Assembly (NCBI GenBank): GCA_028279685.1
Contig: JANQNG010000059.1
Coordinates: 124,001-188,000, forward strand
Origin: Candidatus Nanoarchaeia archaeon
GTDB taxonomy: Archaea > Nanobdellota > Nanobdellia > Woesearchaeales > SKIA01
Reading direction: 5' to 3'
DNA length: 64,000 bases
Part shown: piece after piece, positions 3,626 through 28,332 of the stretch
Layout: each line of letters begins with the position of its first letter
How positions within the stretch are numbered: the first letter of the stretch is position 1
Program-made: the position numbers and the translations under genes
The notes under the pieces: generated by a model
The model's input: only the letters and a program-made list of their open reading frames with translations
What the model was told of the DNA's origin: nothing
Database searches by the model: none

Positions 3626-3700
3626 GCTTCCGTAGCTCAGTCCGGCTAGAGCGGCTGCCTCGTAAGCAGCAGGTCGAGGGTTCAAATCCCTCCGGGAGCT
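3626..3700 (+). tRNA. tRNA-Thr(CGT)
   Basis: The 75-nt cloverleaf is complete. The acceptor GCTTCCG pairs with CGGGAGC through one T-G wobble, with discriminator T. The anticodon arm GCTGC-CTCGTAA-GCAGC gives anticodon CGT for ACG codons, and the T arm GAGGG-TTCAAAT-CCCTC is standard. CCA is not encoded and there is no intron. A TATA-like element at about 3591-3603 is correctly placed upstream. Confidence 0.95.
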
Positions 3701-25488: not shown

Positions 25489-26157
25489 ATGCGTATAAAA
25501 GAGATGCTTCCTGATCAAAGGCCTCGAGAAAGGTTAATAAGACAAGGAGTTGCTGTGCTTTCTGATGCTGAATTGCTGGCGATTGTGTTGCACAAGGGAA
25601 CGCGGCAAGAAAATGTAATGGAAATAAGCAATAGACTCATTGCAAAATATGGTTTGGTGCAACTTTCTTCTTGCTCTTTATCTGAGTTGCAGATGATTAA
25701 AGGGATAGGAGAAGTAAAAGCAGCTCAGGTTCTTGCATCATTCGAACTTGGCAGAAGACATGCAATTGGTAATTGTGTGGATAGATGTTTTTCTTCTTCA
25801 AAGGAAGTATTTGCTTATTTTCTGCCAAAGTTATCCTGGCTGAAAAAAGAGTATTTTATTGTTGTTCATCTTGATACAAGGAACAGAATGATAAAAGAAG
25901 AGGTGATTACTGTTGGCATTCTGGATAGTCTTATAATTCATCCAAGAGAAGTTTTTCGTTCTGCGGTAAAAGAAAGCGCATATGCTTTGATCTTTGTGCA
26001 TAATCATCCTTCAGGAGATGCTGCACCTTCAGTTGAAGATCAGCAGATTACACAGCAGCTTGCGAAAGCAGGAGAATTATTTGGTATATCTGTGTTAGAT
26101 CATGTAATCATAGGAAAAGATTCGTATTATAGTTTTAAAGATGCAGGGTTATTGTAA
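25489..26157 (+). CDS. radC: RadC-family JAMM protein
   Basis: The 222-residue protein has the RadC layout: an N-terminal UPF0758 region, a helix-hairpin-helix (MIKGIGEVKAAQ, about 69-80) and a C-terminal JAMM domain with intact H171-N-H173-P ... S181-x2-D184. RadC is abundant in bacteria, its role is uncertain, and an early link to DNA repair was withdrawn. It is uncommon in archaea, so transfer from bacteria is plausible. It contrasts with the degenerate JAMM protein at the left end of this window. Single gene with no strong ribosome site. Confidence 0.9.
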   Translation: MRIKEMLPDQRPRERLIRQGVAVLSDAELLAIVLHKGTRQENVMEISNRLIAKYGLVQLSSCSLSELQMIKGIGEVKAAQVLASFELGRRHAIGNCVDRCFSSSKEVFAYFLPKLSWLKKEYFIVVHLDTRNRMIKEEVITVGILDSLIIHPREVFRSAVKESAYALIFVHNHPSGDAAPSVEDQQITQQLAKAGELFGISVLDHVIIGKDSYYSFKDAGLL

Positions 26158-26163
26158 AAGCAT

Positions 26164-26505
26164 TCAGTTTCTTCCAAAATATGATAGAAATTTCTGGAGG
26201 GCTTTATTTACTGGATGTGGCTTACCATATATTTGTCCAGAAACTAAATATGTATTACCTTCAAATACGTCGAAGACTATGCGTTCAATTTCAAGTTCCG
26301 ATATATGGGTTGCTCTTGGGAAATCTCTTTGTACCTCTTGAGCAAAGAGATAAGTGGCTTCATTCATATGTCTTTCTAGAGTGTCATTGGCACAATGACG
26401 AACAGTAATTTCCCTGCAATCTTCGTCATAGAGAAGATCCAATCCTTCTTCAGTTATTTTTGATTCTGGTAATTTATCCGCTCTTACATTTTCATGAAGT
26501 TCCAT
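26164..26505 (-). CDS. Hypothetical protein, 113 residues
   Basis: Not recognised. It is an acidic soluble protein with a central helix rich in Glu and Arg, and no signal, membrane segment or metal motif. A TATA-like TAATAAATACC about 25 nt before ATG 26505 suggests a leaderless mRNA. It is convergent with radC, 6 bp apart. The 120 bp upstream hold an imperfect dyad at 26563-26582 (GGAAATTAT and ATAATTCC arms). Confidence 0.55.
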   Translation of the reverse strand: MELHENVRADKLPESKITEEGLDLLYDEDCREITVRHCANDTLERHMNEATYLFAQEVQRDFPRATHISELEIERIVFDVFEGNTYLVSGQIYGKPHPVNKALQKFLSYFGRN

Positions 26506-26629
26506 AAGGATGGGATGCAGAGGGTATTTATTAATGTTTTGGTAGATTATTCAGTTCTACACGGAAATTATTCGATAATTCCTGAGGAAGACACTTAAAG
26601 AATTCTTAATTTTGTAAAAATAAAGAAAA

Positions 26630-26700
26630 ATGGACGCCTAACTGGCGAGCACCTGACTCAAACAGTCCATTACCCAACGAAATACAATCTGAAAGGTTTC
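26630..26700 (+). pseudogene. Decayed tRNA-Leu copy (or tRNA-like RNA) upstream of tRNA-Leu
   Basis: TGGACGCCTA and TTACCCAACGAA here are identical to the D-arm and variable-arm parts of the tRNA-Leu 95 bp downstream and occur in the same order, with a CTCAA anticodon-loop remnant between. It has no acceptor partner and no D-loop insertion. The copy can still fold: ATGGAC pairs with GTCCAT and encloses GCC-TAACT-GGC and GAG/CTC stems. A TATA-like ACTTAAAG lies about 30 nt upstream, so it may be transcribed, alone or with the tRNA. Confidence 0.5.
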
Positions 26701-26725
26701 CGGATTATTTAAATTTTTTTATTAT

Positions 26726-26932
26726 GCCGTGGACGCCTAGTTTGGTTCTTACCGAAGGTAAGTTCAAACGCTAGTTTGTATTGGCGCCCGCCTCAAGAGC
26801 GGGTTCGTTACCCAACGAAGCGAAGGTTCGAATCAAAAACTCTGTAGAGTTTTTGGTCCAAAAAAGCAATGAAATTGCTTTTTTGATATCATCAATGGTT
26901 AAACCTTGAGGGCGAAGATCCCTCCCACGGCG
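26726..26932 (+). tRNA. tRNA-Leu(CAA), apparently interrupted twice
   Basis: The acceptor GCCGTGG/CCACGGC is perfect. The anticodon arm CCCGC-CTCAAGA-GCGGG gives CAA, and a long variable arm TTCGTT-ACCC-AACGAA marks a class II tRNA. The locus is 207 nt against about 88 expected. Removing 33 nt from the D loop (about 26747-26779; hairpin CTTACC-GAA-GGTAAG) and about 86 nt from the T loop (about 26834-26919) leaves GCC-TAGTTTGGTATT-GGC and GAAGG-TTCGAAT-CCCTC, with one A-C mismatch. Discriminator G is odd for Leu. Both insertions look like introns at positions known in other archaea, but splice motifs are unresolved; a decaying gene is the alternative. Confidence 0.55.
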
Positions 26933-26943
26933 CATGTTATTTC

Positions 26944-28332
26944 TCATTTATTCTTTGAGCAAAACAACATGTTTATTCCAATTATAAATAATGATGCGGA
27001 TACGAGTATGTGTGCACTATTGACAATGTTCCCATAAATAAATAATGGAACTCCCACAATAAAAGAAAAAAGTATTCCCCAAAAAACTCCTTTCTCTGAT
27101 AGATGTTTTTTATATAGGCTTGCCAATGTAGGAACTAAAATACATGCTGCAATAGTGTTGAAGATCCACCATAAATGCTGTAATCCGAATTCTGGAATAT
27201 GTTCAACTGCTAAAGCAATAACAACACTTATCAACATTATAATTATCATCCCCCATCTTGCATATTTAACTTTCTTTTTATTCATAATATCAATAATCCA
27301 TAATGAACTCCCTGCTGCTAATCCTGAATCTAATGTTGATGTTAGTCCTGCAAGAAGCATAATGACAAATAACATTACTGCCCATGATGGGAGCAATTGG
27401 GCAACTGTCTGCACACCAATCATTGAAACATCTAATCCTTCAGGCAAACTAATTCCTAATGAAGGATTTGCTGCAAGAAAACCCAAACTTGATAATGCTA
27501 TTGGTACTATGCCAAAAAGTAGTGCTCCAAAAATAAATGCTGCAATTATTTTTTTCTTTTTTAATGCAAATGTTCTTTGCCAATACTGTTGATCAGAAAT
27601 AGCTCCTGCAATAAGTCCTATTGATGTTACAATGCCAAATGAGAATGCTACTCCAGGATCAAAGATATTTCCTATGTTTTCTATACCTTGAAGATTAAAT
27701 CCTCCTGTTGCTGTAGTTAATGTCATGGGAATAATAATGATTCCGATGATAAATATTAATGCTAATTGTAAAACATCTGTAATTACTGATGCAGCTAATC
27801 CTGAGATTAAAGTATATATTAATGCAATAATTGCTAATGCGAAAAGAACTTTCATAAAAGGAATTCCTGTTAGCAAAGAAACTAGATGTCCTCCAGCAAA
27901 CAATTGTACAGTTACAGCCATAATTTGATAGAACATATACGGGATGATGTACATAATATGAGTTCTCTTGCTTTTGAATTTTTCTTTAATGAATTGTGGG
28001 AGTGTATATCCTTTCGGCATTAATGATCTTATTTTTGGCGCTAAAAATGCAAAGATTGCTAATGCTATAATGTTTGGCAGAGTAAACCAAAATATTCCTG
28101 CTAATCCTTTTTGATATGCAATTTGTGAACTAATAAATAATGCGGGTGCCCAGATCCAGGATGCTGCAATGCTTATTCCTCCATTAAACCATCCTAGTTT
28201 TCTGTTTGCTACTAGGAAAGCATCTTTTGTATTTTCTTTTCTTAGTTTTGCGAAAATCCCTGTTATGAATATCATTGTTAATCCGAAGCATATCAGGAAG
28301 ATCCATCCTTGAGTTGTTGTTATGAATGCCAT
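26944..28332 (-). CDS. Sodium/solute symporter (SSS family)
   Basis: The 462-residue protein has about 12-13 membrane helices in the LeuT-like SSS arrangement. Family marks include the N-terminal cytoplasmic LVANRKLGWFNGGISIAA segment near 40-58, the Q-YWQR motif near 230 and the helix with TSTLDSGLAAGSS near 315. It takes up an organic solute, a sugar, amino acid or osmolyte, with Na+; which one is not visible. GGTGATAAC before ATG 28332 serves as ribosome site. Upstream lies a 16-bp element almost identical to one before the TrmB gene at 29666, which suggests control by that regulator. Confidence 0.88.
   Translation of the reverse strand: MAFITTTQGWIFLICFGLTMIFITGIFAKLRKENTKDAFLVANRKLGWFNGGISIAASWIWAPALFISSQIAYQKGLAGIFWFTLPNIIALAIFAFLAPKIRSLMPKGYTLPQFIKEKFKSKRTHIMYIIPYMFYQIMAVTVQLFAGGHLVSLLTGIPFMKVLFALAIIALIYTLISGLAASVITDVLQLALIFIIGIIIIPMTLTTATGGFNLQGIENIGNIFDPGVAFSFGIVTSIGLIAGAISDQQYWQRTFALKKKKIIAAFIFGALLFGIVPIALSSLGFLAANPSLGISLPEGLDVSMIGVQTVAQLLPSWAVMLFVIMLLAGLTSTLDSGLAAGSSLWIIDIMNKKKVKYARWGMIIIMLISVVIALAVEHIPEFGLQHLWWIFNTIAACILVPTLASLYKKHLSEKGVFWGILFSFIVGVPLFIYGNIVNSAHILVSASLFIIGINMLFCSKNK

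Follow-up and report, generated by a model that had tools for sequence, protein, structure and literature searches.

A class II tRNA-like gene with a predicted T-loop intron and its relatives, a family of mostly serine-like archaeal tRNA genes with anticodons for NUN codons

The window analysed here is a 64,000-nucleotide stretch (positions 124,001 to 188,000 of contig JANQNG010000059.1) from Candidatus Nanoarchaeia archaeon, a member of the order Woesearchaeales whose assembly (GCA_028279685.1) spans 1.9 Mb and is 92% complete. On its forward strand, positions 26726-26932 hold the precursor gene of a class II tRNA-like molecule, matched by two covariance models built from its relatives, R1 (six genes, four of them from the window's genome; 60.2 bits) and R2 (50 sequences; 52.6 bits). 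The 7-bp acceptor stem is formed by 26726-26732 and 26925-26931 and is followed by the discriminator G73 at 26932. By alignment, the anticodon CAA, with A at position 35 (A35), lies at 26794-26796 and the long variable arm at 26804-26821. The T stem, 5 bp in length, consists of GAAGG (26822-26826) and CCCUC (26920-26924), the latter placed by the splice-motif parse, and forms four of its five pairs, the fifth being an A-C mismatch. The acceptor, anticodon and variable arms are intact and in order, as the original prediction had them, and the extra DNA that it placed in the D loop (33 nt) and in the T loop (86 nt) is present at both places. The whole of 26726-26932 folds with a z-score of -6.38 against its shuffled versions, none of 200 being as good.

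Upstream on the same strand lie an A-rich tract (26610-26629), also seen by eye in many relatives, a partial copy of the gene (26632-26681), and a putative TATA-like promoter, GGATTATTTAAATTTTTTT, at 26702-26720, proposed from its sequence and position; a similar element precedes the paralogs. Downstream, the opposite strand carries a transporter gene (26944-28332), which we take to be sodium/solute-symporter-like. Its eight best named relatives, which belong to CPR bacteria (e.g. Magasanikbacteria), a Kiritimatiellales bacterium and Woesearchaeota, share 63-68% identity with it, and this points to horizontal exchange. Among the matches listed in a DNA similarity search of 60 genomes with the gene as query, those outside the locus were short and fell mostly on its AT-rich hairpins.

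The 86-nt insert of the T loop (26833-26918) is a predicted intron at tRNA position 59/60, framed by a BHB motif, a 4-bp helix between two 3-nt bulges. The 5′ strand of its centre, UUCG (26827-26830, T-loop positions 54-57), forms all four pairs with the 3′ strand CGAA (26913-26916). The bulges are AAU (26831-26833) and GAU (26917-26919), and the predicted cuts fall after the second base of each (AA/U and GA/U). Taking the insert out leaves a normal T loop, UUCGAAU. The window gene and its paralogs share one layout: behind the T stem stands UUCG, replaced by UUCA in one gene; a 3-nt bulge then leads into the insert, which is followed by CGAA or a variant of it, a second 3-nt bulge and the 3′ T strand. 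Relatives whose T loop has UUCA carry UGAA on the other side. Once the predicted intron is removed, family members measure 81-98 nt (median 84), the window gene keeping an overlong D loop.

In an alignment of 50 sequences, which was fitted to the structure and thereby leans towards pairing, 96.5% of 1441 pair cells are formed, and both partners vary in 24 of 29 pairs. At the innermost BHB pair, 31 sequences have A-U and 19 have G-C. None of 500 shuffles did as well, and registers slid along the alignment were 40-46% paired. The window's genome, in which many ordinary tRNA genes contain introns, has one match to the EndA family (PF01974, E 3.3e-26). When the window gene was scanned for BHB motifs by itself and without guidance, the 59/60 site did not appear among the six best T-region candidates listed, so that the intron claim rests on comparison with relatives. 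On this comparison, a real non-canonical archaeal intron at 26833-26918 is well supported, and from it we infer the splicing itself.

Introns at 59/60 of the T loop are common in this archaeal order, where a strict pattern for them matched 19 of 193 genomes and the reversed control pattern 2; the match in G055 is a chance one that spans an intact tRNA. By eye, the hosts are tRNAs for Lys, Ala, Gly, Arg, Pro, Asp, Gln, Glu, Leu and Ser, besides the family described here. The point of the original prediction that two non-canonical introns in one tRNA are rare outside Thermoproteales is thus not supported for this lineage. In the window's genome, a Leu(TAG) gene (L356, C78:38188-38331) has an anticodon-loop insert and, again by eye, an intron at 59/60 of the T loop that is built in the same way.

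The D-loop insert (26746-26778) contains a hairpin and a near copy of TAGTTTG. Enumeration of BHB motifs in the window gene found none that leaves a D loop of normal length; in the same scan, taken as a control, a D-loop BHB ranked first in the Leu(TAA) gene L003 and second in L023. Both insertions had been proposed as introns whose removal restores normal loops, and this is confirmed for the T loop and not for the D loop. The two Leu(TAA) genes, which belong to the window's genome, carry the D-loop motif GGTC/GACC or GACT with 3-nt bulges AAA or AGA, and by eye also an anticodon-loop insert, which makes two introns per tRNA. Elsewhere, in G115, the D loop of one family gene (L142) harbours a 41-nt palindrome that is nearly repeated in the T-loop intron of a second gene (L140). 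A closely similar gene of G059 (L164) is without it, and hairpin insertion is therefore one possible origin of the window's D-loop insert.

At E ≤0.001, R1 gave nine matches in the window's genome, the E-values of models R1-R3 being rough. Eight of them, the window gene included, belong to one family with unexpected anticodons (seven CAA, one GAT), and the ninth (on C57) reads as an intron-bearing Ser tRNA and was dropped. At E 1e-14, R2 matched 56 of 371 genomes of the phylum, namely 53 in the order, with the window's genome among them, and 3 elsewhere in the class; the latter three, like some matches within the order, are genuine tRNA-Ser genes that share the intron, and R2 matches accordingly comprise Ser tRNAs as well as A35 genes. 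Part of the survey matches were read individually, and at most 20 or at most 10 candidates were scored per genome, so copy numbers are lower bounds. Genome G084, which is 100% complete, holds at least 12 A35 genes by alignment reading. Standard tools see little of this. ARAGORN called a tRNA-Thr at 3626 as the sole tRNA of the window; the Rfam tRNA model did not reach E 1 within 26000-27600, did not list the locus among its matches to the whole genome at E 10, and places four family members of G084 below its cut-off. The family is thus easy to overlook.

Pooling yielded 111 distinct class II genes with a T-loop intron, nearly all from one order: 94 with A35, 14 with a Ser anticodon and 3 odd ones (CTC, GCC and an 8-base loop). 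By anticodon, the A35 genes divide into GAA (25), GAT (15), CAA (14), CAG (13), GAG (10), AAG (9), GAC (4), TAG (2), AAC (1) and TAA (1), all of which match NUN codons (Phe, Leu, Ile, Val). AAG and AAC have A34, which is unusual in archaea, and U33 is missing from some anticodon loops (C33 in 6 of 64 parsed). A35 genes served to train R1 and R2, whose matches therefore lean towards A35; the 14 Ser genes were recovered nonetheless, and a pattern blind to the anticodon gave 22 matches in 17 of 352 genomes, all 22 of them A35 in alignments. Thirteen further A35 genes known from alignment lie outside the pool, and another G73 class II gene with a T-loop intron (L139) has the anticodon CCT. That these genes form a real family, mostly with a Ser-like body, is well supported at the level of sequence, and the covariation of their stems shows the cloverleaf and the splice motif to be under selection.

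Several observations concern the surroundings of family members. At L058 and L059, truncated copies lie downstream, with the D arm joined to the variable arm and the anticodon arm missing, and each is followed by a TATA-like box. Genome G165 has a single SerRS gene, and three family genes are found within 7 kb of it (C2:117300-131000, L136). The SerRS gene of the window's genome is located on a contig that carries none of the eight family genes.

The original prediction called the locus a tRNA-Leu(CAA), and the identity elements contradict this. According to PMC9976931, archaeal Leu identity needs A73, whereas Ser identity depends strongly on G73 and then on G30-C40, and not on the anticodon. 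The window gene has a Leu anticodon and a long variable arm and lacks A73; it has the Ser elements G73 and G30-C40, but its anticodon is not a Ser one. G30-C40 is found in 64 of the 94 A35 genes, and G73 in 116 of 118 aligned family rows (Ser rows included). G73 had been taken, together with the T-stem mismatch, as a possible sign of decay. Both features are real, and the discriminator proves to be a trait of the family rather than of decay. In overall identity, 108 of the 118 rows (true Ser included) resemble the Ser tRNAs of G084 more closely than its Leu tRNAs; the window gene is undecided (Leu 0.69, Ser 0.67), as are most of the divergent paralogs in its genome. A Leu model gives the window gene 15.5 bits against 52.6 with R2; for four real Leu genes from this genome, the two scores are 67-75 and 17-27 bits, respectively. 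Since R2 rewards the intron, these scores support family membership rather than charging specificity. The Leu model is without T-loop introns, yet L356, intron-bearing by eye, scores 75.2 bits with it. A tRNA-Leu(CAA) with two introns was rejected, as the D-loop insert has no BHB and the identity is unlike Leu.

A search for a second Leu(CAA) gene, suggested with the original prediction, turned up no Leu(CAA) with A73 in the 92%-complete genome, where Leu TAG, GAG and two TAA genes were found, but did yield six more family genes with CAA. In G084, A73 is borne by Leu genes CAA, TAG, TAA and CAG, Ile genes GAT and TAT, and Val genes TAC, GAC and CAC, and G73 by Ser genes TGA, CGA, GGA and GCT; its four Leu and four Ser genes are free of T-loop introns. 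With ordinary Leu, Ile, Val and Ser genes in place, the A35 genes of G084 are extra. This tRNA list comes from ARAGORN, which is blind to T-loop introns and was used for parsed genes only; tRNA-Phe is absent from it.

A single SerRS above the cut-off was found in each of 16 genomes (16/16), and a duplicated SerRS was dismissed on this ground, four weak matches below the cut-off being set aside. The nine TTG codons of the organism's own SerRS fall in six hydrophobic and three mixed columns and in no conserved Ser column, so that a reassignment of UUG to Ser finds no support in this one gene. Reading the anticodon loop shifted by one (positions 33-35) gives Ser-like UGA or CGA for many members and fails for CAA, CAG, AAG and TAG; it was likewise discarded.

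Two further features recur in the family. At the end of the intron, GAGGG (26908-26912) forms a second T-stem 5′ strand that pairs 5/5, by eye, with 26920-26924 and is present in the fold centroid, making it a candidate for a competing T arm. Such a strand, made up of the five intron bases that directly precede the BHB centre, is found in 37 of 94 A35 genes and 0 of 14 Ser genes; at other offsets its frequency is 0.4%. The second feature is the partial copy upstream, recognised by eye at the window locus and by statistics across the family. At 26632-26681 it comprises the D arm, part of the anticodon arm and the variable arm, with the T arm and the 3′ acceptor strand missing, and by eye it shares mainly the variable arm TTACCCAACGAA with the gene. 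Many members have an A-rich tract and a partial copy of their own 5′ part upstream, and the shared piece ends mostly about 35-67 bases 5′ of the gene (86-87 in three), near the TATA box. In members of a second set that have no copy, the A-rich tract often stands directly before the gene, as judged by eye.

In a first set, 40 of 64 genes share at least 10 nt of the anticodon arm with their own upstream DNA, against 1.0% of 4032 cross pairs. Eight of the 61 rows of alignment A2 had been removed by hand from this set (ordinary or intron-bearing Ser and other tRNAs, an antisense match, a cut match and the CCT gene L139). The automatic parse read A35 in 62 of the 64; the exceptions, L144:768 and L179, are A35 by alignment, and the calls for L037 and L142, mis-registered by D-loop inserts, are CAA in the alignment. 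In the second set, an upstream match of at least 10 nt was present in 16 of 51 A35 genes, in one of the 14 Ser genes and in none of the 3 odd ones, with 0.24% for cross pairs; the one Ser match is probably chance, and many A35 genes are evidently without an upstream copy. The two sets overlap partly (e.g. in G115 and G110), and the pool of 111 counts distinct sequences only.

The reading that we favour, tentatively and at somewhat less than an even chance, is that the family encodes splice-gated tRNAs that are charged with serine and read hydrophobic codons. The gene would be transcribed from its own TATA box, EndA would cut both bulges and a ligase would join the exons. The single, anticodon-blind SerRS would then charge the spliced tRNA with serine by way of G73, G30-C40 and the long variable arm, and serine would be put at NUN codons (UUG for the window gene), the product being a natural missense tRNA that stays silent until spliced. 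In a subset that includes the window gene, the T strand of the intron can pair with the 3′ T strand instead and could hold the precursor in an unspliceable fold; the upstream partial copy may, at a guess, be a control element or a second RNA. Serine at hydrophobic codons should be very harmful, which counts against this model, and as UUG appears not to be reassigned in the one gene tested, the output would have to be low, conditional or not translational. The broader proposal is doubtful: an order-wide arsenal of splice-gated seryl-tRNAs for NUN codons, controlled by the competing T fold, the anticodon-repeating copy or both, and allowing a switchable, proteome-wide mistranslation for stress diversification or for poisoning in defence.

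The family might instead consist of tRNA-like regulatory RNAs outside translation, whose working molecule would be the precursor, unspliced and with its T arm extended, together with the upstream copy (a decoy, a guide or a two-RNA switch). The copy tracks the anticodon arm of its neighbour far above chance, the intron contains the competing T arm, the A34 anticodons and C33 loops would be poor decoders, and in G084 it is the A35 genes that keep T-loop introns while the Ser and Leu genes have none. However, the splice motif, the canonical mature T loop, the stems and G73 are conserved as in a working tRNA, and true Ser tRNAs carry the same intron; we hold such a role to be somewhat unlikely. 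The prevalence of A35 (94 of 111) and the failure to find an A73 Leu(CAA) in the window's genome would also fit ordinary extra isoacceptors, charged with Leu (or Phe, Ile or Val) by G73-tolerant synthetases and decoding normally or exchanging one hydrophobic residue for another; A35 is common to the Leu isoacceptors of E. coli (PMC9976931). This reading is unlikely in our judgement, given that G73 is nearly universal in the family while the Leu, Ile and Val genes of G084 have A73, that G084 already holds Leu CAA and CAG, Ile GAT and Val GAC, that the window gene scores far below the four real Leu genes with the Leu model, and that the family sequences are mostly Ser-like.

A question of its own is whether the window copy still works. 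The original prediction kept decay as an alternative, and it stays live: with its T-stem mismatch and D-loop insert, the gene may be a weakened or decaying member. That it is an outright relic, its insert and A-C mismatch being products of decay and its upstream copy a worn tandem duplicate, is a serious possibility towards which we do not lean, and one compatible with any reading of the family. The D-loop insert has no BHB, the upstream copy matches weakly in its anticodon part, and the R1 score of the gene is the lowest of the eight A35 copies in its genome (72.8-109 bits for the others; four trained R1). Against this, the acceptor, anticodon and variable arms are intact, the BHB centre pairs 4/4 and the fold is far better than that of shuffled sequences; decay of this copy is also silent on the family, whose stems covary. 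It is improbable that the A35 genes and half copies are by-products of a mobile or att-site system, a small element that copies tRNA parts beside tRNA genes. Among ordinary tRNAs of the window's genome, 10 of 31 share at least 10 nt of their 3′ end with downstream DNA, as do 25 of 930 cross pairs; the match of L026, counted among the ten, is just the neighbouring tRNA gene. In G115, moreover, the 41-nt palindrome of a D loop is nearly repeated in another gene's T-loop intron. But the copies beside A35 genes cover the 5′ part, lie upstream and keep a similar distance from the gene, and covariation reflects selection on the genes themselves. Two viral pattern scans, which cover part of the family only, returned 1 and 18 stretches, and the family model matched 0 of these 19 at E 1e-4; a viral origin was set aside.

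At L005, L006, L010 (two genes), L013, L030, L032 and other loci of the window's genome, hairpin-rich DNA lies some 95-125 nt 3′ of an ordinary tRNA gene and closes with a repeat of that gene's own 3′ end. These 3′-end copies look like an att-type duplication or the work of a small tRNA-targeting element.

If the family is charged with serine, as in the model that we favour, many members of an archaeal order keep genes that swap serine for hydrophobic residues, and their cells carry a switchable misreading of their own genetic code, which would allow programmed mistranslation, and the retention of such genes, to be tested directly. If its role is not translational, the family would be a sizeable class of tRNA-derived RNAs for which we found no name.

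In the literature searched, which covers few subscription journals, we found neither a multi-gene archaeal A35 family with a T-loop intron, a competing strand and an anticodon-tracking copy, nor a paper joining Woesearchaeota, tRNA introns and the anticodon. Two of the ingredients are already known in kind, non-canonical BHB introns (PMC4033280, PMC8450103) and Ser-type tRNAs with foreign anticodons (PMC7609411, PMC11415595). Allo-tRNAs (PMC7609411) resemble the family in their class II-like body, Ser identity elements and many non-Ser anticodons, and their host function is described as unclear. They differ in being bacterial, in their 8/4 or 9/3 acceptor and T arms and in anticodons that extend over 35 codons. 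The family is archaeal, its arms are 7/5, its T loop holds an intron and nearly all of its anticodons have A35; the window gene shares the Ser elements and the non-Ser anticodon and does not have the 12-bp acceptor domain (8/4 or 9/3) of allo-tRNAs. Natural mistranslating tRNAs, tRNA-Ser(CAG) of the CUG yeasts among them, are likewise Ser-type molecules that read a Leu codon by virtue of an anticodon-blind SerRS (PMC11415595). The yeasts employ one codon, whereas the family covers the NUN column with several genes per genome and an intron, and the single gene examined here showed no reassignment. Thermoproteales are the best-known hosts of non-canonical BHB introns, which lie outside position 37/38 and have two 3-nt bulges and a 4-bp helix, a motif cut by the archaeal endonuclease (PMC4033280, PMC8450103); the introns of the family belong to another archaeal lineage and occupy one site, 59/60, across paralogs of an odd tRNA. 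Finally, the 14 archaeal tRNA-Ser genes with a T-loop intron found in this study resemble the family in intron position, motif, G73 and class II form, and differ from it in having Ser anticodons, no competing T strand (0/14) and, save for one probable chance match, no upstream 10-nt match (1/14).
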